The notes beneath the pieces are model-generated. The model searched no databases. It saw only the letters and a program-made list of their open reading frames with translations, and was not told the origin of the DNA. A program made the translations under genes and the position numbers. From Thiohalobacter sp. (GTDB lineage Bacteria > Pseudomonadota > Gammaproteobacteria > DSM-19610): a DNA stretch of 34,494 nucleotides. Below are positions 8,977 to 31,886 of the stretch, piece after piece. Within the stretch, counting starts at the first letter, position 1. Each line of letters opens with the position of its first letter. The stretch is taken from contig JALSRZ010000105.1 of the NCBI GenBank assembly GCA_026984515.1, positions 1-34,494 of the forward strand. The letters are read 5' to 3'.

Positions 8977-8987
8977 GGCGCAGTACC

Positions 8988-10015: not shown

Positions 10016-10050
10016 GAAACATACCTCCTGTTAAACATAATCCGGACTCG

Positions 10051-10081: not shown

Positions 10082-10257
10082 CCCGCATTTCTCACCGACT
10101 TCCTGCTGCGGCGGCGTCATGCCGCGCGCTAAGCGCCGTTCACTCGGTCGGGCTGCTCGACATCGTGTCGACTATGCCTGCGCGGCCCTCGGTCGCGAAC
10201 GCCGCTTATCACACGACCTGCCACCGCCTCGCTACGGAACCCGGTGAGAAATGCGGG
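10082..10257. mobile_element. MITE-like element, copy 1 (176 bp)
   Basis: The element starts with CCCGCATTTCTCACCG and ends with its exact reverse complement, giving 16-base terminal inverted repeats. It is flanked by perfect CTAA duplications (10078-10081 and 10258-10261). Further in, the two halves remain imperfectly complementary, so the whole can fold into a long hairpin, with TCGACATCGTGTCGA at its centre. It has no coding capacity. A second copy of the same length lies inverted at 24792-24967, about 95% identical by eye. YTAR-type four-base targets are known for IS5-subgroup transposases, so mobilisation in trans by such an enzyme is possible. It separates the merT-like from the merP-like gene. 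Confidence 0.9.
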
Positions 10258-10665: not shown

Positions 10666-10701
10666 TGCTGGATACCTCTTTCCCTCGTGCCGGGTATGAC
10701 A

Positions 10702-10721
10702 GTCTGGAGCCAACTCCAGGT
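10702..10721. promoter_or_regulatory. Second, imperfect copy of the ZntR-like dyad
   Basis: GTCTGGAG-CCAA-CTCCAGGT repeats the core CTGGAG-N4-CTCCAG of the operator at 10764-10783. It lies about 28-47 bases downstream of the expected leftward transcription start, where a bound regulator could block elongation. No promoter hexamers frame it on the minus strand. Confidence 0.55.
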
Positions 10722-10755
10722 TCCCGGACACATCAAAAATTCAGCCAGTGCGTAC

Positions 10756-10786
10756 ATCCTACGACCTGGAGTTGACTCCAGGTCAA
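10756..10786 (-). promoter_or_regulatory. MerR-family promoter with ZntR-like operator for the merT-like operon
   Basis: On the minus strand, TTGACC (10781-10786) and TAGGAT (10756-10761) are separated by 19 bases, the over-long spacer typical of promoters remodelled by MerR-family activators. The spacer holds a perfect dyad, ACCTGGAGT-CA-ACTCCAGGT (10764-10783). Its core resembles the E. coli zntA operator more than the mer operator. Confidence 0.8.
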
Positions 10787-10824
10787 GCATGGATTCACCC
10801 CGCCGGAAAAAAAACCGGAATCCC

Positions 10825-10856
10825 TTGACTCCGTACCATGGTACGGCGCCTAGACT
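10825..10856 (+). promoter_or_regulatory. mer-type promoter/operator for merC-merA
   Basis: TTGACT (10825-10830) is followed by the perfect palindrome CCGTACCATGGTACGG (10831-10846) and a weak -10 (TAGACT at 10851 with a 20-base spacer, or CTAGAC at 10850 with 19). It closely resembles the Tn21/Tn501 mer promoter, where MerR twists the DNA to align the two hexamers. No merR gene is present in the window. Confidence 0.8.
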
Positions 10857-10864
10857 ACCCTTGA

Positions 10865-10881
10865 AGTACAGTTTTTGTACT
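10865..10881. promoter_or_regulatory. Inverted repeat in the merC leader
   Basis: AGTACA and TGTACT form a perfect six-base inverted repeat with five bases between, just downstream of the mer-type -10. It could be a second regulator site or an early RNA hairpin. The leader runs about 250 bases before merC and also contains a 25-codon frame (10917-10994) that I do not accept as a gene. Confidence 0.35.
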
Positions 10882-11111
10882 CCACGGTGACACGAAATGC
10901 AGGGGAATCACTGCGTATGACCCATCCAGACACCATCACCGGAAAACCCGCTCCGGAACCGGCTTCGCTTCCTTGCCGGGTCTCTCGGCGGTAGCAGGGA
11001 TGCTGCCATCGAGCCTGCAGGAACGTATTTAGCGCGCGTCTGTAAACCAACCGACCGGCCAACAGCGCACTCACTGAAAAACGACGTAATGACAATGAAA
11101 GGAACACACGC

Positions 11112-13212
<2,101 letters not shown>

Positions 13213-13227
13213 ACCGGGAACGGGCAA

Positions 13228-13252
13228 CCGGTCATAACCCCGGCATGACCGG
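13228..13252. terminator. Hairpin between convergent merA and multicopper oxidase genes
   Basis: CCGGTCAT and ATGACCGG form a perfect eight-base stem around a nine-base loop, between the two stop codons (13212 and 13280). No T run follows on either strand, so it may be a weak bidirectional terminator or transcript-end stabiliser. Confidence 0.5.
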
Positions 13253-13279
13253 CTGCCCCCCCGCTAAACTGCGTCGGTG

Positions 13280-14845
13280 CTACTCCACCACCATCCAGTT
13301 CACCATCATGGCGTGATCCTCGTGTTCGAGGATATGACAGTGCATCATGTAGGAAGTAGACACATCGGCCGGATCACTCACGTAGTCGTCAAAACGACCG
13401 ATTACCCGTACCGAACCTCCCGGCGGTAACTGGAAGGTATCCTTCCACCCCGCCCACTGCGGTGGTGGTGGTGCGCCGTTGATATCCAGGATCTGGTATT
13501 CCAGGTCGTGCAGGTGGATGGGATGGAACATGCCGGTCCGGTTAACCAGCTCCCAGATTTCCGTATCACCCAGCTTGACCATCGCCCCGACGTATTCCGG
13601 ATCGTACGGCCGCCGGTTGATCGTCCACGGGGTATTACCGCGTCCTGCACGTTCGAAGGTCCAGCGCCGTGTAGTCGTCGCATCCGCCGGGTTCAGGCGC
13701 TCCATGGGCCGCAGGGTGGAAGGCACCACACTGTCATCGATGGTCTCCGTGGCTACGTCAAAGCGGATGATGTCGAAGGTATTGCCACCACCGCCTCCGC
13801 CGCCCATGCCACCGCCGCCGCCCATGCCGCCACCGGTGTTGTTCATGGTGACCGACTGCCCGATCGGCACACCGGAAAAATCGATAATAAAATCGACCCG
13901 TTCCGCAGGCGCCACATTCAGTGTGTTGAGTGTTACCGGTGCTTCCAGCAGGCCGCCATCCGAACCGATCACGATGAATGACGCTCCGTTGCTCAGCGTG
14001 AAATTATAGAAACGTGCATTGGAACCATTCAACAGGCGGAAGCGGTACTTGCGGTTACCGACCTCGAAACGCGGGTACGGGGTACCGTTGACCAGAATGG
14101 TATCGCCGAACTCTCCCATACCCTGGAACCGGTCGTTATAGATCAGCGAACCATCCGCCGCAAAGGTACGGTCCTGTACCACCAGCGGTACTTCATACGC
14201 GCCGCTCGGCAGTCCCAGTGAACGTTCCAGATCGTCTTCAATGAGATAGAAGCCCGCCAGGCCCGCATACACCTGGTCGCCGGTCAGGTCCATGGTGTGG
14301 TCGTGGTACCAGAGCGTCGCCGGCAACTGCAGGTTACTGTAATCGTAGTCCTTGGATTCACCCGGGTTGAGCAGATCGATGGGGTGACCGTCGTAACGGG
14401 GGTCCATGTGCCCGCCGTGCAGGTGGGTAGTGGTCTGTGTATTCAGGGTGTTGTTGGTCTGACGCACAATGGTTCGCCGGTTGGCATCCACGCGAATCGT
14501 CGGCCCGGGAGTCATACCGTTATAACCCAGTATGTCGGTCGTCGTCCCCGGAATAATGGAGACCGATGCATTCTGCTGCGAGATCTCATACAGATCATAC
14601 GCGGCTGTTGACGCAATCGGTGCAAGTTCCGGCGGTATATTCAATGGCAACTCGAAAACCGGAACGGTTGTCCCGCCACCGCCACCGCCACCGCCACCGC
14701 CACCGCCACCGCCTCCGGCACCACCTCCGCCTCCACCGCCCATGCGCCGTGCAATACCGGTTTGTGGTAACAACAACGCGCCGGCACCGGCACCGACCCC
14801 CTTGATGAATTTACGTCTGCTTATTGCCGAGTGTAGTTTGCTCAT
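13280..14845 (-). CDS. Tat-exported multicopper oxidase with polyglycine insert
   Basis: This 521-residue periplasmic multicopper oxidase carries a Tat leader (SRRKFIKG, R10-R11). All four copper segments are visible: HLHGGH at 141-146, WYHDH at 169-173, HPIHLH in the third domain, and MHCHILEHEDHAMM at the end with type-1 ligands C503, H508 and M513. It should oxidise metal ions or phenolics with reduction of oxygen to water. Next to the mer and HMA genes, a cuprous-oxidase role is plausible but unproven. Two glycine-rich tracts are odd: one at about residues 36-58, between the leader and the first domain, and a GGGMGGGG-type one in the middle. GAGGACGT precedes the ATG. Confidence 0.93.
   Translation of the reverse strand: MSKLHSAISRRKFIKGVGAGAGALLLPQTGIARRMGGGGGGGAGGGGGGGGGGGGGGGTTVPVFELPLNIPPELAPIASTAAYDLYEISQQNASVSIIPGTTTDILGYNGMTPGPTIRVDANRRTIVRQTNNTLNTQTTTHLHGGHMDPRYDGHPIDLLNPGESKDYDYSNLQLPATLWYHDHTMDLTGDQVYAGLAGFYLIEDDLERSLGLPSGAYEVPLVVQDRTFAADGSLIYNDRFQGMGEFGDTILVNGTPYPRFEVGNRKYRFRLLNGSNARFYNFTLSNGASFIVIGSDGGLLEAPVTLNTLNVAPAERVDFIIDFSGVPIGQSVTMNNTGGGMGGGGGMGGGGGGGNTFDIIRFDVATETIDDSVVPSTLRPMERLNPADATTTRRWTFERAGRGNTPWTINRRPYDPEYVGAMVKLGDTEIWELVNRTGMFHPIHLHDLEYQILDINGAPPPPQWAGWKDTFQLPPGGSVRVIGRFDDYVSDPADVSTSYMMHCHILEHEDHAMMVNWMVVE
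14673..14708. repeat. Hexanucleotide microsatellite in the multicopper oxidase gene
   Basis: Six perfect tandem copies of CCGCCA are followed by degenerate CCGCCT-like units to about 14740. They encode the polyglycine tract near the N-terminus. Slippage by whole units would change linker length without shifting the frame. Confidence 0.9.
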
Positions 14846-15312: not shown

Positions 15313-16014
15313 ATGGAAACCCAGGCAGTACAGCCGGAATGGCTGCAGCAGTACCCGCAACTGGCGTCGCTGGATGACCCGGCATGGCTGGCCACGCTGA
15401 ATAAAATGGAAATACTGAGCCTGCCACCCGGCAGCGTAGTATTCCGGCCAGGCGACCCGTGTGCCAACCTGTTATTCCTGATCGATGGTCACGTACGGGT
15501 ATTCATGCACGGCGAAAACGGTCGCGAGATGGCTATCTCGCATCTGTCGGGTGGCGAGCTGTGCGTATTCACGCTCACCACCCTGTTGCAGGGCAGAAAC
15601 TATTCAGCCACTGCCCTTACCGAGACCAGGGCGCGCGCAGCCCGCCTGCCCGCAGCCGAATTCCGGGAAGCCTTTGCCCGCTCCAGGGGCTTCCAGGACT
15701 ATGTCCTTTCCGAACTGGCCAGGCGACAACAGCATACACTGCTGCTGTTGCAGGAGGTTGCCTTTGAACGCCTGGAAACCCGGCTGGCCGGGTTCCTGAT
15801 GCGTCAGGCCAGCAGGGATCAGCAGGCAGCGGTCCGCATGACGCACCAGCAAATCGCCTGTGAGCTGGGTACCACCCGGGAAATGATCAGCCGCCTGCTG
15901 AAGGACATGGAGCAACGCGGCTGCGTGCGCCTGAGACGCAAGCGCATCGACGTACTGGATGCGCAGCGAGTGCCACAACCCGGGTTCGCAGCAACTCCAA
16001 TACGTAACCTTTGA
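15313..16014 (+). CDS. Crp/Fnr-family transcription regulator
   Basis: This 233-residue regulator has an N-terminal cyclic-nucleotide-type beta-roll (about 15-130, with LPPGSVVFRPGDPC and LFLIDGHVRVF) and a C-terminal winged helix (about 165-215, with MTHQQIACELGTTREMISRLLKDME). It lacks the cysteine cluster of a [4Fe-4S] Fnr. It has C50, and C84 in GGELCVFTL, a position that also carries cysteine in some redox-responsive Crp/Fnr members. AGG-rich sequence (atggaggagc) lies about ten bases upstream. It precedes the histidine kinase pair by about 100 bases and faces the multicopper oxidase gene. The signal it senses cannot be read from sequence. Confidence 0.88.
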   Translation: METQAVQPEWLQQYPQLASLDDPAWLATLNKMEILSLPPGSVVFRPGDPCANLLFLIDGHVRVFMHGENGREMAISHLSGGELCVFTLTTLLQGRNYSATALTETRARAARLPAAEFREAFARSRGFQDYVLSELARRQQHTLLLLQEVAFERLETRLAGFLMRQASRDQQAAVRMTHQQIACELGTTREMISRLLKDMEQRGCVRLRRKRIDVLDAQRVPQPGFAATPIRNL

Positions 16015-16112: not shown

Positions 16113-17927
16113 ATGACGGAAGGTTGGCGCAAAGACCGATATGGCGTGTTCGTAAAACGAATCCGCAGTCTGCCCGGCCGGCTGCTGCTTTCACTGCTGG
16201 CGATTCACCTGGTACTGGTACCGTTGCTGGTGGTCTTTGTGTTCCGGATGGCGGAACAGAACTACCAGGACCGTTTCATCGACCAGTCCCGCAGCGATGC
16301 GCAATGGGTACAGACGCGACTGGAATCAAGCTCCATCGACGCCCGGAATGTGCAGGCCCTGCTGGACGACCTGGTGCTGAACCCGTTCCGCCAGTCGGTG
16401 CAGCTGTTCGATGCCGACGGCATCCGCATTGCCGGTGCCGGCTCGCTGCTGGATGTGTCGGTGCGTGAGCTGCCCGAAGATTATGGCTTTGGACAGCACG
16501 GGGATGGGCTGTACTGGATCGTGCAACCGCTGCGTGATAACACGGATCGCTCGCTGCATACACTGCGGGTTGCCTACGATGAAGCCCCCGTTTCAAAAGA
16601 CATCAGCCGGCTGTATTCCCGCAGCATGCAGCTGGCTGCCGGTTACCTGCTGCTGGTGGTTGCCGCCGTCGCTGTCTTCGGCAACTACCTGTCACGCGCC
16701 CTGCGCCAGATAGGATCGGCAGCCCACCGCATTGCCACCGGTCACATCCACGACCGCTTCCGGCCATCCGGCAGCGCCACAGAAATCGTTGAACTGGCCG
16801 CAGACCTGGAACACATGCGCGCCGATCTGGTCAAGCGTGGCCAGCTGCTGGAAGAACAGCGCCTGTACCTGCGCATGCTGCTCGATCATATTGCCGAAGG
16901 CGTGGTGACCTTCGACTTCGACGGCCGCATCGAAACCTGCAATCCGGCCGCGCTGGACATTTTCGGCTACCGCCCGGAACAGGCCGGTGAACTGATGATC
17001 AGTGACTGGCTGCCGGGCCTGCGCATGCCACCCACGACCGATGGCGACTATCCCGCCCAGCAACACCTGGGGCAACGCCGGGACGGCAGCTTTATTACGG
17101 TTGAGCTCACCTTCAGCATGACCACGCACCAGGACAGGCAGGGCTACCTGGCCCTGATCCGGGATATCAGCGAACGCAAACGTATCGAGGATGAACACCG
17201 GAAAAACAGTGAAGAACTCGCCCACGCGCGTCGCCTCAGCAGCCTGGGTGAAATGGCGGCCAGCCTGGCACACGAAATCAATCAGCCACTGGCCGCTATC
17301 AATCTGTACATACAGGGTGGCCTGCGTCGCCTTACCGGCACCCCTGACAAGCTCAGTGACATACGGCAGGCACTGGAGAATGCCAGCCAGCAGGCGCAGC
17401 GTGCCGGCGACATTATCGAACGGATACGCGGGTACGTAAAAAAGACCCCGTTGCGGGTCGTGCCTACCGATATCAACCAGCTGATCCGCAAGGTCGCTCA
17501 CCTGGTGGAGACCGAAACCATTGGCAGCGTCACCGGCATCCAGTTCGAATTATCCGGACACCTGCCGCCGGTGGCGCTGGATCCCGTGCAAATACAACAG
17601 GTTCTGGTCAACCTGATCAGCAACGGCATCGAAGCCATGAAAACGACGCCGGCGCCCGAACGATTGCTGACCATCCGCACCGGCTGTGACGCGCAACACG
17701 TGAGTCTCGCCGTGGAGGACCGGGGACGTGGCATTAGCGCTGATATCGCCGACCGGCTTTTCGAGCCCTTTGTCAGTGGTCGCCGCGATGGTATCGGCCT
17801 GGGGCTGGCCATCAGTCGCTCGATTGCGGAAAAACACGGCGGCAGTCTTGACTTCAAAGCGCGCGCCGGCGGTGGTACTGTGTTCCTTGTCACATTACCC
17901 CTACCGGGCACACAACAGGCGCCATGA
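16113..17927 (+). CDS. Sensor histidine kinase with periplasmic FGQHGD domain, HAMP and PAS
   Basis: In order, this 604-residue kinase has a membrane span (21-45), a periplasmic domain (46-170), a second span (about 173-195), HAMP (about 196-250), PAS (about 255-360), HisKA and HATPase. The phospho-accepting histidine is H387 in LAHEINQPLAAI, the FixL/DctB-like type. The ATP site shows DRGRGIS and GIGLGLAISRS. The periplasmic domain contains FGQHGD (126-131), shared with the GGDEF-EAL protein at 22437. The start has only a distant AGGA site and could be slightly further downstream. Its stop overlaps the next kinase start (ATGA at 17924-17927), so the two kinases are coupled. The ligand is unknown. 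Confidence 0.93.
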   Translation: MTEGWRKDRYGVFVKRIRSLPGRLLLSLLAIHLVLVPLLVVFVFRMAEQNYQDRFIDQSRSDAQWVQTRLESSSIDARNVQALLDDLVLNPFRQSVQLFDADGIRIAGAGSLLDVSVRELPEDYGFGQHGDGLYWIVQPLRDNTDRSLHTLRVAYDEAPVSKDISRLYSRSMQLAAGYLLLVVAAVAVFGNYLSRALRQIGSAAHRIATGHIHDRFRPSGSATEIVELAADLEHMRADLVKRGQLLEEQRLYLRMLLDHIAEGVVTFDFDGRIETCNPAALDIFGYRPEQAGELMISDWLPGLRMPPTTDGDYPAQQHLGQRRDGSFITVELTFSMTTHQDRQGYLALIRDISERKRIEDEHRKNSEELAHARRLSSLGEMAASLAHEINQPLAAINLYIQGGLRRLTGTPDKLSDIRQALENASQQAQRAGDIIERIRGYVKKTPLRVVPTDINQLIRKVAHLVETETIGSVTGIQFELSGHLPPVALDPVQIQQVLVNLISNGIEAMKTTPAPERLLTIRTGCDAQHVSLAVEDRGRGISADIADRLFEPFVSGRRDGIGLGLAISRSIAEKHGGSLDFKARAGGGTVFLVTLPLPGTQQAP

Positions 17928-19336
17928 AAGACACCCACATCACCGCCAGCCCAGCGGCGCAAACACCCTGTCCCAGGGCCGGCAGGATTTATATAGAACC
18001 CACTATCCGCACCATTGCCGGTGGCATCATCGTCACGCTGGGCACGCTGATGTATTTTGTCGAACAGCATTCGCTCATCCTGTATTTCGTCCTGTTGTTT
18101 GTCGGCATCAACCTGTTCCAGTCCGGCCTCAGCGGTTTCTGCCTGATGGAGAAAATGCTGAAGCTCGCCGGCCTGACCAGCGAGCTGGACGAGATACGCT
18201 CCCTGAGCAACAGAATACAACTCATCTCCAACCGGCAGGCGGCCTACCTCGACACGCTCAACCTGCTCAATGAAGCGGTGATGGAACTGTCTCCCGAAGG
18301 ACGCATACTGGCTATTTCGGATGGCTGGCTGCGCCTCAGCGGGGAGACCGATCACGACCATTCCTTCAACCGGCCACTCACCGACTACCTGGCGGACAGT
18401 GACCATGAACGGCTGACCGGCCTGCTCGATACACTGAACCGGAAGAGCGGGAACACCCGGCAGGCCAAGTTCCGCCTGGTAACCCGCGACGGGGAGATCA
18501 AATGGGTAAGCGGCAACTTCATGCTCGTCAGCCAGGATGGCCAAAGTTCCATAAAAGGCGTGCTTACCGATATCAGTGAAAGCAAACGACTGGAAGAGGA
18601 ACGGCGCACCTTTCACCAGGAGCTGACCCATGCGCGTCGCCTGAGCAACCTGGGCGAAATGGCGGCCGGACTGGCGCATGAACTCAACCAGCCGCTGGCC
18701 GCTGTCAACCTGTATATACAGGGTTGCCTGCAACGCCTGGATACCCCCCCGGAGAACCCGGAACAGCTCAGGAATGCCATGCAGGCGGCCGGGCAGCAGG
18801 CCAAGCGCGCCGGCGATATCATCAAGCAGATCCGGAGTTTTGTACGCAAACGACCGTTCAGTCGCCTGGACACCGATATCAACGAGCTGATCAGGGACTC
18901 CCTGCAGCTGCTCGACAGCGAACCGGCCCGCCAGGATATCCACTTCTGCCTTGAATTCGACGACCGGATCCCGCCGATCCCGCTGGACCGCCTGCAGATC
19001 CAGCAGGTACTGATCAACCTGATCAGTAATGCAGCCGACGCCATGGAGGGTATGCAACAGGACCGGCGCATCACCCTGCGCACGCGTTCCTCCACGGGCG
19101 ACGTGCTGGTCGAAATAGAAGATCGCGGCAAGGGCATACCGGAGGAAATTACCGACCAGCTGTTCGAACCCTTTGTCACGGGCCGCAAGGACGGGCTGGG
19201 TCTGGGACTGGCCATCAGCCGGTCTATTATCGAGGAACACGGCGGCACACTGAGGTACAGCAGCTTGCCGAATGGCGGCAGTTGCTTTAGTTTCAGATTA
19301 CCCGTGGAGAACGGAGACGGCGAAAATAATGACTGA
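17924..19336 (+). CDS. DUF2892-PAS histidine kinase
   Basis: This 470-residue kinase has no periplasmic domain. Residues 20-85 form a two-span membrane hairpin of the DUF2892 type (IEPTIRTIAGG, LFQSGLSGFCLMEKM). A linker, a PAS domain (about 100-220), HisKA with H252 in LAHELNQPLAAV, and HATPase with DRGKGIPEE and GLGLGLAISRS follow. The same N-terminal 220 residues recur, clearly homologous, in the diguanylate cyclase at 26140. It is translated from an ATG overlapping the previous kinase and overlaps the response regulator start by eight bases. Both kinases probably act on that single regulator. The cytoplasmic PAS may bind a cofactor, but none can be assigned. Confidence 0.92.
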   Translation: MKDTHITASPAAQTPCPRAGRIYIEPTIRTIAGGIIVTLGTLMYFVEQHSLILYFVLLFVGINLFQSGLSGFCLMEKMLKLAGLTSELDEIRSLSNRIQLISNRQAAYLDTLNLLNEAVMELSPEGRILAISDGWLRLSGETDHDHSFNRPLTDYLADSDHERLTGLLDTLNRKSGNTRQAKFRLVTRDGEIKWVSGNFMLVSQDGQSSIKGVLTDISESKRLEEERRTFHQELTHARRLSNLGEMAAGLAHELNQPLAAVNLYIQGCLQRLDTPPENPEQLRNAMQAAGQQAKRAGDIIKQIRSFVRKRPFSRLDTDINELIRDSLQLLDSEPARQDIHFCLEFDDRIPPIPLDRLQIQQVLINLISNAADAMEGMQQDRRITLRTRSSTGDVLVEIEDRGKGIPEEITDQLFEPFVTGRKDGLGLGLAISRSIIEEHGGTLRYSSLPNGGSCFSFRLPVENGDGENND

Positions 19337-19943
19337 AGCGGCCACCGTATTCATTGTCGATGACGACCCCGCTGTTCGTGACTCCCTGCGCTGGCTGATC
19401 GAAAGCCTGCAGCACCCGGTCGAAGTATTCGAATCGGCACAGGACTTCCTCGACAGCCATACCCGCAACCAGCCGGGCTGCCTGGTGCTGGATGTCCGCC
19501 TGCCCGGCATGAGCGGTCTGCAGCTGCAGGGCAAGCTCCTGGAAGAAGGCATCGACCTGCCCATCATCATTATCACCGGTCACGGGGACATTCCCATGGC
19601 GGTACGCGCGCTGCAGGCCGGCGCCCTGCACTTCCTGGAAAAGCCGTTCCGCGACCAGGAGATCCTGGACTGTGTCCAGGAAGCCCTGGAACTCTCCAGT
19701 AACCGCTTTGCATCCCGCCTGCACAAAAAACAGATCATGAACCGCATTGAAACCCTGACGCCGCGCGAGTACCAGGTCATGAAGGATATCGTCGCCGGGC
19801 ATACCAACCGGAGCATCGGCGAAAAACACGACATCAGCACCAAGACCGTCGAGATACACCGCACCCGGGTCATGCATAAAATGGAAGCCGGCACCCTGCC
19901 CGACCTGGTGAAAATGGTGCTTGCCGTCGACCCCGAAAGCTGA
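19329..19943 (+). CDS. FixJ/NarL-type response regulator
   Basis: This 204-residue regulator has a receiver domain (about 5-120) with the acidic cluster D11-D13, phospho-acceptor D55 (LDVRLPGMSG), T83 and K105 (EKPF). A LuxR-type helix-turn-helix follows (about 140-200, LTPREYQVMKDIVAGHTNRSI). All residues needed for phosphorylation are present. The ATG at 19329 is chosen because it gives a standard receiver start and overlaps the kinase stop, and a GGAG site lies upstream. With the two preceding kinases it forms a three-gene two-component operon that ends at a strong hairpin. Its target genes may be the nearby CHRD and porin genes, but I cannot see a shared operator. Confidence 0.93.
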   Translation: MTEAATVFIVDDDPAVRDSLRWLIESLQHPVEVFESAQDFLDSHTRNQPGCLVLDVRLPGMSGLQLQGKLLEEGIDLPIIIITGHGDIPMAVRALQAGALHFLEKPFRDQEILDCVQEALELSSNRFASRLHKKQIMNRIETLTPREYQVMKDIVAGHTNRSIGEKHDISTKTVEIHRTRVMHKMEAGTLPDLVKMVLAVDPES

Positions 19944-19950
19944 ACGGCAT

Positions 19951-19982
19951 GGCAGGCCGGAACCACACGGATCCGGCCTGCC
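19951..19982. terminator. Strong hairpin between convergent regulator and CHRD genes
   Basis: GGCAGGCCGG and CCGGCCTGCC form a perfect ten-base stem around a 12-base loop, eight bases after the response regulator stop. The gene on the other side (stop at 20006) points towards it. T runs are short, so it may act in both directions with moderate efficiency. Confidence 0.65.
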
Positions 19983-20005
19983 TTCCGATCACTGACTGAA
20001 CCGTA

Positions 20006-20533
20006 TCAGTCTTCCCCTGCAGCCGGCGTTTCGATGACCTGGCCGCGAACCTCCCCGGCCGGGAAGTTAGCAGTGTGCACGTTGACATAGATCCTGTGCT
20101 GCCTGACTGCTTCAAGCAGGGATGCAATATTGTTGATCGCCATACCACAGGCCGGATTGGTCGCGTCGATCGGACGAATATCGTCGTTGCTGATCGTGAT
20201 ATTCCTGCCCACCATCACGTTGACCGCGGGCATGCCGTTGGCGCCTGACAGGGCACAATGCATATGTATGGCCGTTACATCCGCCGACAGGCCATTGACC
20301 TTCAGCGTGTAGGTCGCACTGTCCAGCGCCGCGGGAAAGTCTATGCTGAAAGTACCGGAACCATCGCTCATTACCGCCGGAACGTTCTGGGCACCACTCA
20401 GTGTGGCAGCAAATGAATAGGCCGGTGCAGGCGGTTTGCCACCACTTCCCATACCACCACGCATACCACCGGCATGTGCGGACGTAACCAAGACCAGTGC
20501 TGCAAGTGCACCGCTTACTGTCAGTATTTTCAT
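20006..20533 (-). CDS. Secreted CHRD-domain protein
   Basis: This 175-residue exported protein has a signal peptide ending near residue 21 (TSAHAGG) and a glycine/methionine-rich linker. A CHRD domain follows, with YSFAATLSGAQNVPAV, AIHMHCALSGANG and IYVNVHTANFPAGEVRGQV. CHRD domains were named after chordin; in bacteria their role is unknown. The ATG at 20533 is chosen for its AGGAGGGG site; the frame is open upstream but without signal-like sequence. Two cysteines (in HMHC and NPACG) may form a disulfide. It stands alone, convergent with the two-component operon. Confidence 0.88.
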   Translation of the reverse strand: MKILTVSGALAALVLVTSAHAGGMRGGMGSGGKPPAPAYSFAATLSGAQNVPAVMSDGSGTFSIDFPAALDSATYTLKVNGLSADVTAIHMHCALSGANGMPAVNVMVGRNITISNDDIRPIDATNPACGMAINNIASLLEAVRQHRIYVNVHTANFPAGEVRGQVIETPAAGED

Positions 20534-20935
20534 TGTACCCCTCCTTTGAGATTTATAAATGCAGCCAAAGTAACGGCTGCTCGCCCCGTGGAAACTGAAC
20601 AGGCTCAGCCACGGGGAGCGCATAGTGGAACACGCATCCACCCGGAGCGTCTGTAGCTAACGATGCAAAATGCAAACCCTGTCAGGAAGCGGGCCTACAC
20701 CGGGAAAGAACAGCAACAAGGTGCAGCCGGTCATGGATCGCGATGGGAACACACGCTGCCGGCCGTCATACCAGTGTACGGAAAGATACATACCATGCTG
20801 TCTACCTGTGATAATAATAGTGGCGGAACCAGCACTTCACTGGTTTCTTCATTGAGTTCTTCTGTTCCGTTCACGACGGCCTGACAGACGCATTCACCAG
20901 GGGATGTGCCGGATAGCTGCAACTTTAATTATTTC
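20534..20935. other. Non-coding region between the CHRD and porin genes
   Basis: About 400 bases hold divergent promoters and a stem of eight bases (CCCCGTGG at 20584 and CCACGGGG at 20609) with a 17-base loop. Short frames exist on both strands but lack ribosome binding sites. I see no repeat shared with the rest of the window. Confidence 0.4.
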
Positions 20936-22006
20936 ATGGAAAAAGCTGCGCATTTCTTCCGACGATTCCTTTATCTATCCGGCCTGTTTACAGCGCTGGC
21001 ACCGGTATTTTGTGTTGCACAATCCAGTCAACAGCTCCTTGTGCTCCCGGAACTCAGGTACCTGCGCCAGGAGCCGGACGCGAGCGGAAAAAACGACAGC
21101 GACTACCGCGCAAGCCTCGACCTGCTGTACGCGCTGGACATCGACCAGTACCGGTTTTTTGCCGAATTCATTGCCACCGACGAGAAAAGCGAGCTGGCAC
21201 GTCTTCACCTGGGCTATAAAACCCGCGCAGGCACAACCCTCTGGCTTGGCCGTTTCCAGCTGAACCAGGGATACTGGAACAAAACCTTCCACTTCCGTAA
21301 CTATATCCAGACCTCCATCCAGCCGCCCGGTATCGCCGCCTACGAGCGTGAAAACGGTGCACTGCCGGTCCACTTCTCCGGCTTCGATATCCGTCACCAG
21401 TGGGCGCTGAATCCTGACGCAACACTGCAACTGGAAGCCGGGTTCGGCGCGGGCACCCGGCTGGAAGGCAGACGACTTGACAGCTTCGACCTGCTCGACC
21501 CTGATGGTGGCCGCAAACCCTCAACCAGTGTGCGACTGAGCTACCTGCCGGAGCAGGATACCGATACCGAGTTCGGCATATTCTATGTCGATAACCGTAT
21601 GCCGATGCGTCGCCTGCAGTTTATACAAAACAAACAAAGGGTCACCGGTGGCTACGCCAATATCCGTTTCGGTGCACTGCGAAGCTACGGTGCCCTGTAC
21701 CGGGTAGATAATGAGTTAACGACTGTGAATGCTCGCCAGAGTGATCATTTCTACAGCGCCTGGCTGCAGGGCGACTACCACCTCCATGCACACTGGACCC
21801 CTTACCTGCGCATCGAACACAGCAACGGGGATGCCGATGATCCCTACGTGTCACTGTTCCCGGCATTTGTGCGCGACCGCAAGCTGGCCGGATTGCGCTG
21901 GGACCTCCTTGAAAACCAGGCCGTCAAATTCGAGTACGCCGACACTGACTTTCTGCGTGAAGATTCCAGCCAGTGGGCGCTCCAGTGGAGCATGATTTTC
22001 CCGTGA
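20936..22006 (+). CDS. Outer-membrane porin-like protein
   Basis: This 356-residue protein has a signal peptide (MEKAAHFFRRFLYLSGLFTAL, cleaved near CVAQS). Many short amphipathic strands follow, ending in LQWSMIFP, close to the usual terminal aromatic of outer-membrane barrels. LGRFQLNQGYWN and PPGIAAYERENGALP resemble equivalents in the second porin at 30320. ATG 20936 gives a proper signal peptide; an upstream in-frame GTG at 20906 is possible. Neither has a good ribosome binding site. Its stop overlaps the start of a PBP-like gene (TGATG at 22004). The solute is unknown. Confidence 0.8.
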   Translation: MEKAAHFFRRFLYLSGLFTALAPVFCVAQSSQQLLVLPELRYLRQEPDASGKNDSDYRASLDLLYALDIDQYRFFAEFIATDEKSELARLHLGYKTRAGTTLWLGRFQLNQGYWNKTFHFRNYIQTSIQPPGIAAYERENGALPVHFSGFDIRHQWALNPDATLQLEAGFGAGTRLEGRRLDSFDLLDPDGGRKPSTSVRLSYLPEQDTDTEFGIFYVDNRMPMRRLQFIQNKQRVTGGYANIRFGALRSYGALYRVDNELTTVNARQSDHFYSAWLQGDYHLHAHWTPYLRIEHSNGDADDPYVSLFPAFVRDRKLAGLRWDLLENQAVKFEYADTDFLREDSSQWALQWSMIFP

Positions 22007-22452
22007 TGCGCGCTGCCCGGTTTCTGCTTCTGCTGCTGTGCACGGCAATTTCACCGTCGGGCCATGCCATGCAATGCCCCTTGCTGGTGGTTGCCAATCG
22101 CACCGTGCCTGTCGACTCACTGTCCCGGAAAACCATCAGGCGGCTGTACCTGGGCGTACCCTACAGGACCCGGAACGGTTCCCTGCAGCCTGTCCGCAAT
22201 GCAGCGGATGCCATGCTGCAGGAGGTCTTTCTGCAAAAGATCCTGTTTATGTCGAAAAACTCCTACCGCCGTGTACTGGCCAATCGACTGGTACAACGAC
22301 GCGAGGCCGGACCGGCGGAATACCGGGATGTCAGCAAACTCATCAAAGGGCTACGCGCCAACCCCCTGATGATTTCCTACCTGTGGGCGTCAGACCTGCC
22401 ACCGGACGGCCAGCTGAAGATACTGCTGGACGTACCATGCGAGAACGACTGA
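22006..22452 (+). CDS. PBP-like (PstS-type) small periplasmic protein
   Basis: This 148-residue exported protein has a signal peptide ending near GHAMQ. The body recalls one lobe of phosphate-type periplasmic binding proteins: LLVVANRTVPVDSLSRKTI, then RRLYLGVPYRTRNG, and NPLMISYLW near the end. In the ABC-associated family this opening strand and the IYLG/FLGK segment are conserved. It is not next to ABC transporter genes. It overlaps the upstream porin and the downstream GGDEF-EAL gene, so it may bind a ligand and present it to the sensor domain. That role is inference. A homologous pair occurs at 30320-31886. Confidence 0.75.
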   Translation: MRAARFLLLLLCTAISPSGHAMQCPLLVVANRTVPVDSLSRKTIRRLYLGVPYRTRNGSLQPVRNAADAMLQEVFLQKILFMSKNSYRRVLANRLVQRREAGPAEYRDVSKLIKGLRANPLMISYLWASDLPPDGQLKILLDVPCEND

Positions 22453-24791
22453 GATACCTCACCGGGAGCCTTGCCGGCCGTTTCGTCTTTGCCGCAGTGA
22501 CGGTAAATCTGCTGCTGGTATCGCTGTTTTATATCGTTATCGTCAACGTGATGGTGGCCAATATCCAGGACGATTTCATCTCCACGGCACGGGTGAAAAG
22601 TGACCTGATCGCCCGCCTGCTGCCAAGTCACACGAACAAGGACAGCGCCCGGGCTGCGCTTGAGGATATCATGCTGGCCGGAGAGGTCGTCTATGCAGAC
22701 TACGGCCTGACCGGTCCGCTGCTGGCACCCGGCTTGTCCGACCGGGATGTGCCGGTATTCCGCGAGGATTATCGTTTTGGCCAGCACGGCGACGCGATCT
22801 ACTTTATCAGCGTCCCGTTGGGCAACCCGTCCATTGCGGACAGGTTGCGCCTTGGCTTCTCTGAACAGGGCGTCCGGCAATACATCGACCAGATCCACCG
22901 CAACGGGCTGTACCTGTCGGGACTCTACCTGCTGATGCTCATCCCCCTGTCGATACTGGCAGCGCGTTCATTGTCCCGACCCATTCAGCGGCTGCGCCAG
23001 AACGCACACGCGATTGCCGGCGGCGAGGTATCGACCCGCATTCGCCAGGACACCGGCATTGTGGAACTGCAGCGGCTGGGGGCAGACCTGGAAACCATGC
23101 GCAGCACCCTGGTTGCTCGTGAAGCGCGCTATGCGGCTGTGCTGACGAATGCCGCCGAGGGCATTCTTACCCTGGACCAGGACGGGCGCATAGAGACCAT
23201 CAACCTGTCCGCGCAACAGGTGCTCGAACTGTCTGCTGATGAGTCGCCTGGCATGTCGCTGGCCACCGCGCTGCGACTGGCCCCGGACCGGTTTACCGGC
23301 GCCGATGGAAAATTCCGGCTGGAAGGCCGGCAACTGCTCACTGTGCCGGCCGGAAAATCCGGTCGACCCACGGAGCTCAGTATCGCCGCCAGCTCGTTCC
23401 GGCAGAATGACCGGCAGGTCTATGTCCTGCTGATACAGGACATCACGCGGCACAAGGAATTGCAGGACCGCCTCCAGTTCATGGCCTACCATGATCTGTT
23501 GACCGAACTGCCCAACCGACAGCAGTTTGTCGAACGTCTGCACAACGCGATTGCCGGTGCCGCCCGCAAGCAATCCGGCCTGGCCGTCCTGTTTCTTGAC
23601 CTGGATCACTTCAAGGTCATCAATGACAGCCTGGGACATCAATACGGTGATTTGCTGCTACAGGAGGCGGGACAGCGGCTGTACGAAAGCGTGCGGGAAA
23701 CCGATGTCGTCGCTCGTATGGGCGGTGACGAATTCACTATCCTGCTGTCATCGATCGAACAGCGCAGCGACGCTGCCCGGGTAGCGGACAAAATTATCGC
23801 TGCATTTGCAAAACCTTTTGACCTGAAGCACTACGAACACTATGTTGGCGCCAGCATCGGCATCGCGATCTACCCGGAAGACAGCGAGGGCGCAGAAGAA
23901 CTGGTCAAACAGGCTGACACCGCCATGTACCAGGCCAAGTCCGCCGGGCGCAACCGCTACCACTACTACAGCAAAGAGTTGCAGCGCAGTGCCATACGCC
24001 GCCTGTCGCTGGCCAACAACCTGCGGCAGGCGCTGAAAAAACGGGAATTAGCCATCCATTACCAGCCGGTCGTGGCGGTCCGCGACAACCGCCTGGTCGG
24101 CGCCGAAGCCCTGGCACGCTGGCGTCACAGCCGGCACGGCTGGATCTCACCCGGAGAATTCATCCCGGTCGCGGAAGAGACCGGCATTATCGCCGACCTG
24201 GGTATCTGGGCACTCAAACAGGTGGTAAAGGATGCTGCCGCACTGCTGGTGGAATCCCCCCTGCTGCGGCTGAGTGTCAATATCTCGGTCCACCAGCTCT
24301 ACCACCGCGATTTTTTTCACCTGCTCGATGCGATTACAGCGGATCACCCGATGGTTACTGAACACCTGGTACTGGAGGTCACCGAAACCGCCGCCATGGT
24401 GGATATCGAAGGCGCTTCCCGCCGCCTGGCGCGCATCCGAGACATGGGTTTTCACATTGCCCTGGATGACTTCGGCACCGGCCATTCCTCGCTGTCCTAT
24501 TTGCGCCGCCTGCCGGTCGATATCCTGAAAATCGACCGTTCTTTTATCAGTGAAATGACCGGCTCTTTCCAGGGCGCCGGCATTGTCAAAAATATCCTGG
24601 CGCTGGCGGCCAACCTGCGCCTGAAGGCCATCGCGGAAGGTGTCGAACGCCCGGAGCAACTGGATATATTGAGAGACAACGGTTGCTATGCCGTGCAGGG
24701 CTTTCTGTTCAGCCCGGCCATCCCCTTTACGGATTTCCAGACCCTGGCGAGCGAGACCGTGCATGGCGTACAACCGGCAACGGCGCGCTAG
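22437..24791 (+). CDS. GGDEF-EAL cyclic-di-GMP enzyme with periplasmic FGQHGD sensor
   Basis: In order, this 784-residue protein has a span (14-38), a periplasmic domain (39-158), a second span, HAMP, PAS (about 240-345), GGDEF and EAL. The cyclase motif GGDEF is intact at 429-433, with an RETD inhibitory site five residues before it. The phosphodiesterase side keeps EAL at 557-559, NISVHQL, EVTET, DDFGTG, ILKID and AEGVE, so both activities are possible. The periplasmic FGQHGD at 114-119 matches the kinase at 16113. The ATG at 22437 overlaps the PBP-like gene by 16 bases. The stop codon TAG is part of the target site of MITE copy 2. Confidence 0.93.
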   Translation: MRERLRYLTGSLAGRFVFAAVTVNLLLVSLFYIVIVNVMVANIQDDFISTARVKSDLIARLLPSHTNKDSARAALEDIMLAGEVVYADYGLTGPLLAPGLSDRDVPVFREDYRFGQHGDAIYFISVPLGNPSIADRLRLGFSEQGVRQYIDQIHRNGLYLSGLYLLMLIPLSILAARSLSRPIQRLRQNAHAIAGGEVSTRIRQDTGIVELQRLGADLETMRSTLVAREARYAAVLTNAAEGILTLDQDGRIETINLSAQQVLELSADESPGMSLATALRLAPDRFTGADGKFRLEGRQLLTVPAGKSGRPTELSIAASSFRQNDRQVYVLLIQDITRHKELQDRLQFMAYHDLLTELPNRQQFVERLHNAIAGAARKQSGLAVLFLDLDHFKVINDSLGHQYGDLLLQEAGQRLYESVRETDVVARMGGDEFTILLSSIEQRSDAARVADKIIAAFAKPFDLKHYEHYVGASIGIAIYPEDSEGAEELVKQADTAMYQAKSAGRNRYHYYSKELQRSAIRRLSLANNLRQALKKRELAIHYQPVVAVRDNRLVGAEALARWRHSRHGWISPGEFIPVAEETGIIADLGIWALKQVVKDAAALLVESPLLRLSVNISVHQLYHRDFFHLLDAITADHPMVTEHLVLEVTETAAMVDIEGASRRLARIRDMGFHIALDDFGTGHSSLSYLRRLPVDILKIDRSFISEMTGSFQGAGIVKNILALAANLRLKAIAEGVERPEQLDILRDNGCYAVQGFLFSPAIPFTDFQTLASETVHGVQPATAR

Positions 24792-24967
24792 CCTGCATTT
24801 CTCACCGGGTTCCGTAGCGAGCTGGTGGCAGGTTGTGTGATAAGCAGCGTTCGCGACCGAGGGCCGCGCAGGCATAGTCGACACGATGTCGAGCAGCCCG
24901 ACCGAGTGAACGCCGCTTAGCGCGCAGCATGACGCCGCTGCAGCAGGAAGTCGGTAAGAAATGCGGG
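24792..24967. mobile_element. MITE-like element, copy 2 (176 bp, inverted)
   Basis: It has the same length and about 95% the same sequence, by eye, as the reverse complement of 10082-10257. Its ends are CCTGCATTTCTCACCG and CGGTAAGAAATGCGGG, each with one change from the copy 1 ends. The flanks are CTAG (24788-24791) and CCAG (24968-24971), a YTAR-like duplication with one difference. The left flank supplies the TAG stop of the GGDEF-EAL gene. It may act as a terminator for that gene, since it can fold into a long hairpin. The 162 bases after it carry the promoter region of the DUF302-like gene. Confidence 0.9.
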
Positions 24968-25129
24968 CCAGGCCGGAGACAGAAAGAGCCGGTATACGCC
25001 TCTTGTTTGTACCTTTACCCACACTCTGATGCGAATAACCGGCAAAATCCCGCCGTAATGCGCGGTCGGCATCAAGTTTCTGCGCCATATGGTCGCCATG
25101 CAGAGGCACTCACCAACCGGAGGGACCTC

Positions 25130-26086
25130 ATGCCTATCGTAAAACAGGCGCTGTTTGTTTTTACGCTATTGCTTGCCGCATCGTTTGCAGTAACACTGCC
25201 CACGCAGGCAGCGGAACGTTTCAAGCCATTTGTGCTGGCCTGGCGGGGTAATGCCGACTTTACGACCAGGCTCAACGAAGTGCATGAGTCCCTGGAAGCG
25301 GCCGGTTTCCAGGTGGTGGCTGACGTCGCACCCTACCCCAAAGACGGGTATGTCGATGAGCTGCGTATACTGGTATTCACCAGCCCGGAGTTGAAGCGCG
25401 CCGCCGCCCGCTCGGAGCACGGAGGTTTTGCGGCCGCGCAACGTGTCGCCATCACCCGCAGTGGCGATGATATCCAGGTGACCTATGTCAATCCCGTATA
25501 CATGGCGCATGCCTATCGTCTGAAAGGCGATCTGTCCGACACGGCCGCGCTGTTGGCCCGGACCCTTGGCAAGCTGGAGACCTTCGGTTCCCGAAAGGGA
25601 CTGAGCAAACGCCAGTTGCGCAGATACCACTACACCTTTGGCATGGAATACTTCGACGACCCATACCGGCTGGCGGAATATGCAAGCTATGCCGATGCCA
25701 TCCGGCAAGTGGAAAAACACCTGGCGACCAATACAGTCGGCGTACGCCCGGTCTATCGCATTGACATTCCCGGCAAGGAAGAAACCGTGATCGGGGTTAC
25801 CCGCCATGGCCAGGGGGAACGCGGTGAAAAATACGACGATTACTGGATCATGGACAATGTTGACTTTGGTGAGCTGCACACCACTGCTTACCTGCCCTAC
25901 GAGATTATGATTACGGGAAAGCGGGTCATTGGCCTGCACATGCGTTTCCGCATGGCCGTACATCACCCTGACCTGAAAATGATGGGCAAGAACAGTTTCA
26001 TGAACATCATGCCAAGCCCCGGCGCTGTCAGGGACGTGATGACCGTTGCAGTCGGCGGGAAGCGGCAGGAGAACAACGGGGGTTAA
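25130..26086 (+). CDS. Exported DUF302-like protein
   Basis: This 318-residue protein has a signal peptide (MPIVKQALFVFTLLLAASFA, cleaved near TQAAE). The region at residues 30-140, with LEAAGFQVVADV, LVFTSPELKRAAARSEHGGF and QVTYVNPVYMAHA, resembles DUF302, a small fold of unknown function. The second half (YHYTFGMEYFDDPYRLAEY, GLHMRFRMAVHHPDLKMMG) does not match anything I recognise. It is rich in histidine and methionine towards the end (HMRFRMAVHHPDLKMM), which could suggest metal or haem contact. GGAGG lies six bases before the ATG. The DUF2892-GGDEF gene follows 53 bases later, so the two may be coexpressed. Confidence 0.7.
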   Translation: MPIVKQALFVFTLLLAASFAVTLPTQAAERFKPFVLAWRGNADFTTRLNEVHESLEAAGFQVVADVAPYPKDGYVDELRILVFTSPELKRAAARSEHGGFAAAQRVAITRSGDDIQVTYVNPVYMAHAYRLKGDLSDTAALLARTLGKLETFGSRKGLSKRQLRRYHYTFGMEYFDDPYRLAEYASYADAIRQVEKHLATNTVGVRPVYRIDIPGKEETVIGVTRHGQGERGEKYDDYWIMDNVDFGELHTTAYLPYEIMITGKRVIGLHMRFRMAVHHPDLKMMGKNSFMNIMPSPGAVRDVMTVAVGGKRQENNGG

Positions 26087-26139
26087 CACGGCATCCGTGT
26101 CGACTCCTGATACAGGAAGCGAAAAGAGTTCACACAGAC

Positions 26140-27372
26140 ATGACTGCACAGACAGAAAAAAAAGCCCATCTACCCTATATCGAACCCTCTATCCGGACCA
26201 TTGCCGGATTTTTTCTGACAACCATCGGGGTGCTCCTGTACCTGTATGACGAGCAGCGCCTGTTATGGCTGGGCATGCTGTTTTTTATCAGCCTGAACCT
26301 GTTCCAGTCCGGGTTTACCCGCTGGTGTCTGATGGAAATCATTCTCAAGCGCTTCGGTCTCAGGAGTGAACTGGATGAAATCCGCACCCTCAGCAGGCAC
26401 CTGCGCGAGTCGGCTGCACGCCAGGCCGGGCACATGGATACCCTGAATCTGCTCAGTGAAGCGGTACTGGAACTGTCACCGGACGGGATCATACTAAGCG
26501 CTTCGGATGGATGGCGCCGGCTCTCCGGGCACAGTCCGGCAAGCGGAGCGGTAGCCCTGTCACCACTGCTCGACCATGTCATGCAGGACGATGCCCCGGT
26601 GGTAACGAACATGCTCCAGGAGATTACCGGCAGTCGGCGGCGTGTGTTGCGAATCCGTTTCCGGCTGCGGAACAGTCGCAGGGCTGAACGCTGGATCGAA
26701 GGCCGCTTTATGCTCGACCGGCATGACGCAAGCTGCATCCGCATCAAGGGCGTGCTGCGTGATGTCACCGAAACGCACCGCAAAGAACGCCGGATCCGCC
26801 GCATGGCCATGCACGATGCGCTTACCGGGCTGCCCAATCGCAGCCTGCTGCAAAACCGCATGAACCAGGCACTGGCGCACGCCAAACGACACGGATTCCA
26901 CGTTGGTGTCCTGTTTATCGACCTGGACCATTTCAAACAGGTCAATGATACGCACGGACACCGGCGCGGCGACCGGCTGCTGATACACATCAGTAATCTC
27001 CTCAGTCGCAAACTGCGCGCCAGCGACACGCTGGCACGCTGGGGCGGAGATGAATTTGTGGTATTGCTGCCTGACCTGCAGGACCATAGTCGCGGCCTGC
27101 GCACCGTGGCAGAAAACCTGATGTCTGCACTCGCCGGCGAATACCCGGGCGATGCCCTGGAGTCCGTCGTTACACTGAGCATTGGCGCCGCCACTTACCC
27201 CGGGGATGCAGACAATGCGGAAGCACTGCTGTTGCTGGCGGACAAGGCCCTGTATGTCGCCAAGTCACAGGGCAGAAACAACCTCCAGGTCTATAGCGAA
27301 ATACAGGAAAACAGACCCGTCTCCCGGGTATCCGACCGTCCCGTCTGTTGCGAGCACAGCACCCCTACCTGA
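26140..27372 (+). CDS. DUF2892-PAS diguanylate cyclase
   Basis: This 410-residue protein has the DUF2892 membrane hairpin (about 10-75, IEPSIRTIAGF and LFQSGFTRWCLMEI), a PAS domain (about 95-215) and a GGDEF domain. GGDEF is intact at 302-306, with RASD five residues before it as the product-inhibition site, so it should make cyclic-di-GMP. There is no EAL domain. Its first 220 residues are clearly homologous to the kinase at 17924, including LDTLNLLNEAV/MDTLNLLSEAV and SELDEIR. The ribosome binding site is weak. It follows the DUF302-like gene closely and may share its transcript. Confidence 0.92.
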   Translation: MTAQTEKKAHLPYIEPSIRTIAGFFLTTIGVLLYLYDEQRLLWLGMLFFISLNLFQSGFTRWCLMEIILKRFGLRSELDEIRTLSRHLRESAARQAGHMDTLNLLSEAVLELSPDGIILSASDGWRRLSGHSPASGAVALSPLLDHVMQDDAPVVTNMLQEITGSRRRVLRIRFRLRNSRRAERWIEGRFMLDRHDASCIRIKGVLRDVTETHRKERRIRRMAMHDALTGLPNRSLLQNRMNQALAHAKRHGFHVGVLFIDLDHFKQVNDTHGHRRGDRLLIHISNLLSRKLRASDTLARWGGDEFVVLLPDLQDHSRGLRTVAENLMSALAGEYPGDALESVVTLSIGAATYPGDADNAEALLLLADKALYVAKSQGRNNLQVYSEIQENRPVSRVSDRPVCCEHSTPT

Positions 27373-30319: not shown

Positions 30320-31444
30320 ATGACAATCCGATACCGACTGAACGCACTGGGCGCGGCACTGGCGCTTGGCATGGCTCACAATGCCCAGGCGATTGAATTC
30401 AAATGGAGTGGTTTCCTCAACATGGTCGGAGCCAGGAGCAACGACTCCGCCCTGTATCTTCATGATGAGGGCAACATCGACGACAACGGCAGCTTCGAGG
30501 AATCCACCCTGGGACTGAATGCCATTGTCACCATCAATGAAAAACTGAGCATCGCCGCGCAGATCGCCAATGCACCGAGTGATCGCTCCATCGATTTTGA
30601 CTGGGGTTATGGCACACTGAATCTCAACGGTAACTGGGCCGTCAAGGCCGGACGCGTGAAATTCCCCGGCTACCTGGTATCCGAATACGTGCGGGTCGGT
30701 TATGCCTATCCCTGGATCCGCCCTCCGGAAGTCGTGTACTCCATCAACATGGCTGCGCCCACCATGGGTCTGGACGCCTATGACGGTGGCGCACTGCGCT
30801 ACCAGGGCTTCAATGACCGTTTTGACTACTCCGCGGAAATCTATGGCGGCGGGCGTTCCACGGACGTCATGGATTTCGACAAGATGTACGGCCTGGTGCT
30901 GCGCGCCAGTAATGACATCGTCAACCTGGTTACCGATGTCAACTGGTCAACCCTGAACAATCCCCCGGGACTCGCCCCGGCCACCGCCGCGGCACTGGCC
31001 GACACGGCGAACCAGGATATGTTTACCGCCAGTGCCGGCATCAATACGGACTGGAACAACCTGATCCTGTACGCTGAATACGCCTATACCCTGCTGGACT
31101 TCATCAATGCGGCCGGTCAGTCGGATGATGTTGGTATCACCGGCTGGTACACCACGGTCGGATACCGTTTCGGCAACCTGCTGCCTCACCTGACCTATCA
31201 GTCACTCGACAATGGCAATGGAGGACTGGAACAGACCAGCTGGACCGCCGGCCTGCGCTACGACCTGGGCACCGCCACGACGTTAAAACTGGAATGGCAG
31301 CGCATCGAACCGGAAGCCGCAAGGGCCGGCGCCAATGTGCCGGTCAATCTGCAGAACCAGTCCGGCCTGTTCGCCAACGGCGTCGATGTAAGCCCTTCTG
31401 ACGAAGTCGATATGCTGAGTGTCGCTGTCAACTTTATCTTCTGA
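30320..31444 (+). CDS. Outer-membrane porin-like protein
   Basis: This 374-residue protein has a signal peptide ending near NAQAIEF. Strand-rich sequence follows, ending VDMLSVAVNFIF, a classic outer-membrane C-terminus with terminal phenylalanine. VKAGRVKFPGYLVSEYVRVG, WIRPPEVV and LRYQGFNDRFDYSAEIYGGG resemble porins of the same broad family as the one at 20936. AGGGAG lies about seven bases before the ATG. The PBP-like gene follows 10 bases later, repeating the porin plus PBP arrangement at 20936-22452. The transported solute is not apparent. Confidence 0.85.
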   Translation: MTIRYRLNALGAALALGMAHNAQAIEFKWSGFLNMVGARSNDSALYLHDEGNIDDNGSFEESTLGLNAIVTINEKLSIAAQIANAPSDRSIDFDWGYGTLNLNGNWAVKAGRVKFPGYLVSEYVRVGYAYPWIRPPEVVYSINMAAPTMGLDAYDGGALRYQGFNDRFDYSAEIYGGGRSTDVMDFDKMYGLVLRASNDIVNLVTDVNWSTLNNPPGLAPATAAALADTANQDMFTASAGINTDWNNLILYAEYAYTLLDFINAAGQSDDVGITGWYTTVGYRFGNLLPHLTYQSLDNGNGGLEQTSWTAGLRYDLGTATTLKLEWQRIEPEAARAGANVPVNLQNQSGLFANGVDVSPSDEVDMLSVAVNFIF

Positions 31445-31454
31445 GGAGTCACTC

Positions 31455-31886
31455 ATGAGCAGATCAACCGGCATGTTATGGCCTGTGGCGCTGTTCGGGC
31501 TGCTGCTTACCGGCAGCGTTCACGCCGGGCTGGCCATCATCACCCACCCGGATAACCCGGAACCGGCGCTGACACTGAACCAGGTCAAACGGATCTATCT
31601 GGCCAAAGCCAGGACCTTCCCGCAGGGCGGTACCGTGCGACGCGCGGACCAGGCACCCGATACCCCGGCGTACCGGGAATTCGTCAGCAAAGTGCTGGGG
31701 TTGCGCGAGCAACAGCTGAATGCCTACTGGTCGAAGATGACCTTTACCGGCCGCGGCGTCCGTCCCGACAACGTCGGTGACGATGCAGACGTCCGGCAAT
31801 GGATACTGCAACACCGCGATGGACTGGGCTACATTGATACCGGCCAGGTAAATGAACAGGTCAAGGTTCTTCTGATCGTACCCTGA
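31455..31886 (+). CDS. PBP-like (PstS-type) small periplasmic protein
   Basis: This 143-residue exported protein has a signal peptide ending near SVHAGLA. The opening strand LAIITHPDNPEPALTLNQVK and RIYLAKARTFPQGGTVRRADQ match the first part of phosphate-type binding proteins, and GLGYIDTGQVNEQVKVLL matches the end. GAGGAG lies six bases before the ATG at 31455. It pairs with the upstream porin. Compared with its counterpart at 22006 the order of elements is the same but identity is low, so the two probably bind different ligands. No ABC permease or ATPase is nearby. Confidence 0.8.
   Translation: MSRSTGMLWPVALFGLLLTGSVHAGLAIITHPDNPEPALTLNQVKRIYLAKARTFPQGGTVRRADQAPDTPAYREFVSKVLGLREQQLNAYWSKMTFTGRGVRPDNVGDDADVRQWILQHRDGLGYIDTGQVNEQVKVLLIVP

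Follow-up and report, generated by a model that had tools for sequence, protein, structure and literature searches.

Two sensor modules, each carried once by a histidine kinase and once by a cyclic-di-GMP (c-di-GMP) enzyme, lie together in one gene cluster of the window, the whole 34,494-nucleotide stretch of Thiohalobacter sp. DNA analysed here. Sensor A (TM, periplasmic domain of predicted Cache-like fold, TM, HAMP, and PAS) is common to the kinase HK1 and a GGDEF-EAL protein, and sensor B (YgaP-like/DUF2892 hairpin and PAS) is common to the kinase HK2 and a GGDEF protein. The original prediction had these four genes and their two modules in the right places. We lean towards the view that an outer-membrane barrel and a small periplasmic protein (half-SBP) encoded in the same cluster control sensor A, and that this lineage feeds two inputs into a phosphorelay and c-di-GMP.

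Gene organization of the cluster

The first half of the cluster consists of a Crp-type regulator, HK1, HK2, and a FixJ-like response regulator (RR), and the second half of the barrel, the half-SBP, the GGDEF-EAL protein, a gene without a Pfam family, and the GGDEF protein (Table 1). Genes overlap in both halves: HK1 and HK2 share an ATGA at 17924, the ATG of RR at 19329 lies within the end of HK2, and overlaps join the barrel to the half-SBP gene at 22006 and the latter to the GGDEF-EAL gene at 22437-22452. The listed start of the barrel ORF is GTG at 20906, and ATG at 20936 is the likely start.

Table 1. Features of the signalling cluster and their positions in the window
Feature	Position	Strand	Remarks
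Crp/Fnr-type regulator	15313..16014	+	5' of HK1; Pfam cNMP_binding and HTH_Crp_2
HK1	16113..17927	+	Histidine kinase: sensor A, HAMP, PAS, HisKA/HATPase
HK1 periplasmic sensor A domain	16248..16622	+	Residues 46-170; EDYGFGQHGDxxYW motif; predicted Cache-like fold
HK2	17924..19336	+	Sensor B hairpin 18002-18166, PAS 18272-18580, kinase core 18650-19309
FixJ-like response regulator (RR)	19329..19943	+	REC and LuxR HTH; overlaps HK2 end
Outer-membrane beta-barrel-like protein	20936..22006	+	Sensor A cassette; no Pfam family
Half-SBP (small periplasmic protein)	22006..22452	+	Predicted single PstS-like lobe; no Pfam family
GGDEF-EAL protein	22437..24791	+	Sensor A periplasmic 22551-22910, HAMP, PAS, GGDEF 23484-23957, EAL 24015-24716
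GGDEF protein	26140..27372	+	Sensor B hairpin 26188-26349, PAS 26494-26754, GGDEF 26806-27282

On reading the sequences, boxes H, N, G1, F, and G2 were all intact in HK1, and the catalytic motifs of HK2 were intact too. The GGDEF motif and the RxxD I-site were intact in both c-di-GMP proteins, as were EAL, N, E, DDFGTG, K, E, and Q in the EAL domain; by these catalytic motifs, both proteins would qualify as active enzymes. FixL and FixJ were the nearest NCBIfam models of the kinase cores and RR, with scores below the curated cut-offs (FixJ, 245.3 of 255; FixL, 205.9 and 203.1 of 850). A promoter scan gave matches at no more than chance level.

A divergent CHRD-domain gene (20006-20641) sits between RR and the barrel gene and had no counterpart in the related loci read. 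The gene at 24929-26086 has no Pfam family and is missing from its place in a second genome described below (G007), where the GGDEF-EAL and GGDEF genes adjoin.

Each sensor is shared by a kinase and a c-di-GMP enzyme

BLASTP joined HK1 and the GGDEF-EAL protein in one alignment of 357 columns (31% identity, E 8e-31) that ran continuously through TM1, the periplasmic domain, HAMP, and PAS. The periplasmic parts alone (residues 46-170 and 39-158) scored 107 in local alignment, compared with 28 for the average shuffle (z 16), and none of 1000 shuffles equalled it. A profile of c-di-GMP-type sensors, built only from sequences of other genomes, found residues 46-170 of HK1 at E 9e-25 and residues 39-158 of the GGDEF-EAL protein at 4e-24; E 0.3 was the lowest value among 4000 shuffles.

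HK2 and the GGDEF protein were 44% identical over 217 residues covering the hairpin, linker, and PAS (E 4e-50). The parts of sensor B also matched singly, the hairpin at z 26 (0 of 1000 shuffles reached the score) and the linker at z 15. The DUF2892 assignment held for both hairpins, which scored 26.8 and 28.7 with Pfam PF11127 (YgaP-like_TM; gathering score 25.3). An invariant Cys lies in the hairpin. Because the kinase cores of HK1 and HK2 are homologous too (49% over 275 residues), the four proteins make up a full two-by-two set of inputs and outputs, and every module joint in it is a PAS-output junction.

Predicted folds of the envelope parts

The sensor A model (pLDDT 86) consisted of a helix at residues 20-72, a second helix at 77-87, and four strands. 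Its best structure matches were WalK/YycG, LuxQ, and CitA domains (Z about 9-11). With Z 10.8 and 2.7 A over 122 residues, the extracellular domain of WalK came nearest; LuxQ gave Z 9.1. The periplasmic domain is thus predicted to be Cache-like. No Pfam Cache model matched any of 19 sensor A members among hits up to E 0.5, and the EDxxFGQHxDxxY motif was assigned to none of the families found in this analysis. A sequence search of the PDB returned only HAMP domains and a weak CusS match (E 0.29) for sensor A. For sensor B it returned PAS domains only and therefore gave no ligand clue.

The half-SBP model aligned with a single lobe of PstS proteins, covering 108 residues of a 244-residue chain at 2.2 A (Z 12.6), and its mature part of about 125 residues fits a single lobe of this predicted fold. 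Such a protein would have no usual two-lobe ligand cleft, and the model therefore points to a role in protein contact.

The four-gene layout recurs in related genomes

Exactly two copies each of sensors A and B were found in the window's genome (G000). All four genes were present in two of the 20 genomes of the order, the other being MAG HyVt-581 (G007) of another species, and three of the four in a third, HyVt-519 (G012); wider samples yielded no further genome with all four. In G007 they lie on two contigs that end near the junction of the window's two halves, with the order of Crp, HK1, HK2, and RR preserved and the Crp gene 89% identical in the same place (contig C200). G012 carries HK1, HK2, RR, and the GGDEF-EAL gene, its two halves being on different contigs. 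Both points on which the original prediction had staked itself were thus borne out: the paired proteins are homologous outside HAMP and PAS, and the layout recurs, in full in G007 and in part in G012.

Among the 20 genomes, three (G000, G007, and G012) had complete sensor B on kinases and five (G000, G007, G011, G013, and G014) had it on c-di-GMP enzymes; G016 contained a fragment of the module. Strong sensor A matches came from G000, G007, G012, G011, and G016. The only additional carriers of complete sensor B in 369 genomes of the class were GGDEF-EAL proteins of a single other family (G045 and G190). G318 had a further hairpin on a GGDEF-EAL protein, and the rest were stand-alone DUF2892-type or PAS-only matches. 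A 398-genome sample of the phylum contained no additional complete sensor B.

The two halves might also be unrelated operons, Crp-HK1-HK2-RR and barrel-SBP-GGDEF-EAL-GGDEF, that are merely adjacent and do not cooperate. The contig break in G012, the join not being seen in G007, and the divergent CHRD gene between the halves in the window are in keeping with this. However, the two copies of each sensor in the window's genome are divided between the halves, so that both halves have an A and a B sensor; chance adjacency does not readily account for this pairing, and we consider the reading improbable.

A barrel and a half-SBP accompany sensor A

We compared 45 unique sensor A loci, all outside the window. 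In 28 of them a barrel gene and a half-SBP gene stood directly 5' of sensor A, giving a cassette in the order outer-membrane barrel, single-lobe PstS-like periplasmic protein (by its predicted fold), and sensor A. Six loci had the half-SBP only, one the barrel only, and ten neither, so that at least one partner was present in 35/45. Pfam contains no family for any of these three envelope components. The outputs of sensor A were GGDEF-EAL (33 loci), GGDEF (6), and histidine kinase (6); one or two of the six in the GGDEF group are truncated, at the end of a contig or by a frameshift, and their true output may therefore be longer. In two further genomes, G128 and G155, a kinase and a c-di-GMP enzyme encoded on separate contigs both carry sensor A; the reading frame of the G128 kinase is broken. 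A plasmid collection contained no half-SBP relative.

Two sensor A genes are split over frames, one for a GGDEF protein (L158 7165-8796, Candidatus Tenderia MAG) and one for a kinase (L163 2151-3986, HyVt-429); either a frameshift or an assembly error would account for this.

The window's cluster has one half-SBP, and the only other credible match in the same genome is one remote protein (25%). In neither the window nor G007 is HK1 accompanied by its own barrel or half-SBP, and it may therefore have become independent of them. Further downstream in the window, a second barrel gene and, after it, a small gene of binding-protein-like type form a pair that no sensor gene follows (30320-31886). 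This pair was considered as the missing cassette of HK1 and rejected, since neither gene matched the cassette profiles; in G007 the interval from the GGDEF to the PRMT-like gene contains no pair of this kind.

History of the cassette and the kinases

With about 30% identity, the two A sensors were not paired in the tree, but a constraint pairing them was not rejected either (AU p 0.51 and 0.44). In a tree of 36 half-SBPs, those of the G012 HK1 and of the GGDEF-EAL genes of the genus formed one clade with full support (100/100), so the kinase-side and c-di-GMP-side half-SBPs are paralogues. By this tree, a duplication of the cassette probably took place in this lineage, and the clusters of the window and G007 retain just the copy on the c-di-GMP side. 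Both A sensors of G012 have a half-SBP each.

These data also bear on a reading without shared signals, in which duplication and domain swapping were followed by specialisation of each sensor; the barrel and half-SBP would then serve the GGDEF-EAL protein alone, and HK1 would sense a different stimulus directly. The low identity and separate tree places of the A sensors, the absence of cassette genes at HK1 in the window and G007, and the separate half-SBPs in G012 favour this reading. On the other hand, HK1 keeps the invariant EDxxFGQHxDxxY motif, the kinase-side half-SBP of G012 is sister to the c-di-GMP-side one, and the genes remain clustered in two species. We give such specialisation a substantial but lesser chance.

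The B sensors on kinases formed one clade (96/95). The cores of HK1 and HK2 in G012 (L093 2395-5664) are 69% identical to each other and 53-57% identical to those of the window and G007, whereas their sensors are orthologous to the window and G007 counterparts. This difference suggests that the kinase cores evolve together, as would be expected with one shared RR; gene conversion in G012 is a possible cause. Two or more origins of the kinase output in sensor A are not firmly supported: the best trees had 2-4 output changes, but a single clade of all kinase-borne sensors was not rejected (AU p 0.38 and 0.07).

Discussion

We propose to read the cluster as a signalling island with two inputs and two outputs, built by sensor swaps at the PAS-output joint. 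The barrel would admit or sense something outside the cell, and the single-lobe half-SBP would carry the state of the barrel and contact the Cache-like domain of sensor A, from which HAMP and PAS would relay the state to the GGDEF-EAL enzyme. In this lineage the paralogous sensor A of HK1 would also receive input A. Input B would enter through a cytoplasm-facing module, made up of the membrane hairpin with its invariant Cys and of PAS, and reach both HK2 and the diguanylate cyclase at 26140. HK1 and HK2 would phosphorylate one shared FixJ-like RR, which is likely the single partner of both kinases, and both c-di-GMP enzymes would act on one c-di-GMP pool. We infer the protein contacts, the control of HK1 by the half-SBP, the use of one RR by both kinases, and any ligand. 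The original prediction that the same two signals feed a FixJ-type phosphorelay and c-di-GMP turnover holds for the shared modules, both outputs, and the FixJ-like RR, and had overlooked the barrel and the half-SBP; that the same signals reach the paired sensors is a plausible prediction. A stronger version is tentative: one barrel and one half-SBP would drive both the HK1 phosphorelay and GGDEF-EAL turnover, and the second input would be split likewise. Part of it, and equally tentative, is the idea that the barrel, half-PstS protein, and Cache-like sensor constitute an unnamed envelope sensing system with exchangeable outputs. If true, transcription and c-di-GMP would be set in step by matched sensors.

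In Vibrio cholerae and Sinorhizobium, the periplasmic binding protein NspS controls MbaA, a bifunctional GGDEF-EAL receptor in the inner membrane (PMC8967002). Similarly, the binding-protein-like gene at 22006-22452 overlaps the gene of a GGDEF-EAL receptor, and the partner is kept in most related loci. The polyamine-binding NspS is a periplasmic binding protein, whereas the partner here is predicted to be a single PstS-like lobe and not a full two-lobe protein; in addition, a barrel gene precedes the half-SBP here, and sensor A also occurs on kinases. The YfiBNR/TpbB system of Pseudomonas has an outer-membrane part, a small periplasmic protein, and an inner-membrane HAMP-GGDEF protein with a periplasmic PAS (PMC3375315), and the cluster resembles it in a chain from outer membrane through periplasm to inner membrane that ends in c-di-GMP control. 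However, YfiB is a Pal-like lipoprotein and not a barrel, and YfiN has no EAL domain. YfiR-type Pfam families did not match any of 17 half-SBPs, and the barrel gene had no Pfam match, Pal/OmpA included.

LuxP-LuxQ is similar in combining a Cache-clan periplasmic sensor with a separate binding protein, and the sensor A model has LuxQ as one of its structure matches. LuxQ, a hybrid kinase with a larger, double periplasmic domain, binds the full two-lobe SBP LuxP. The predicted sensor A domain is smaller than this double domain, and the half-SBP has a single predicted lobe against the two of LuxP. The Cache superfamily combines a PAS-like fold in the periplasm with a long helix at the N-terminus and is found on kinases, chemoreceptors, and c-di-GMP enzymes (PMC4822843), but sensor A has no Pfam Cache match and its motif falls outside any family found. 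Unlike FixL/FixJ, the cluster kinases carry different sensors. The sensor B hairpin resembles YgaP-like TM (PF11127); in the surveyed class, this family mostly matched small proteins standing alone, and its fusions to PAS with a kinase or GGDEF were rare.

The sharing of Cache sensors, a GGDEF-EAL receptor controlled by a binding protein, and an envelope-spanning c-di-GMP chain are documented (PMC4822843, PMC8967002, PMC3375315). The evolutionary transfer of sensor domains between kinases and c-di-GMP enzymes is likewise known. The arrangement had been predicted to be undescribed; this stands for two kinase/c-di-GMP sensor pairs side by side, which is unusual, and not for the sharing of Cache-like sensors (PMC4822843). 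In a literature search conducted for the most part outside subscription journals, we found no description of the barrel/half-PstS/sensor cassette, of two sensor pairs side by side, or of DUF2892 kinases. Two pairs in one genome allow a direct test of whether matched sensors coordinate a phosphorelay with c-di-GMP. The cassette is widespread in Gammaproteobacteria, with GGDEF-EAL, GGDEF, or kinase output, and its parts have no Pfam families; one well-chosen representative would therefore explain the input of many receptors.

The region 5' of the cluster (1602-14845) contains oxidant and metal genes by sequence reading, including cytochrome c peroxidase-, OxyR-, peroxiredoxin-, DyP-, and mercuric-reductase-like genes and a multicopper oxidase. 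A multicopper oxidase also adjoins a cluster gene in G012 and G013.
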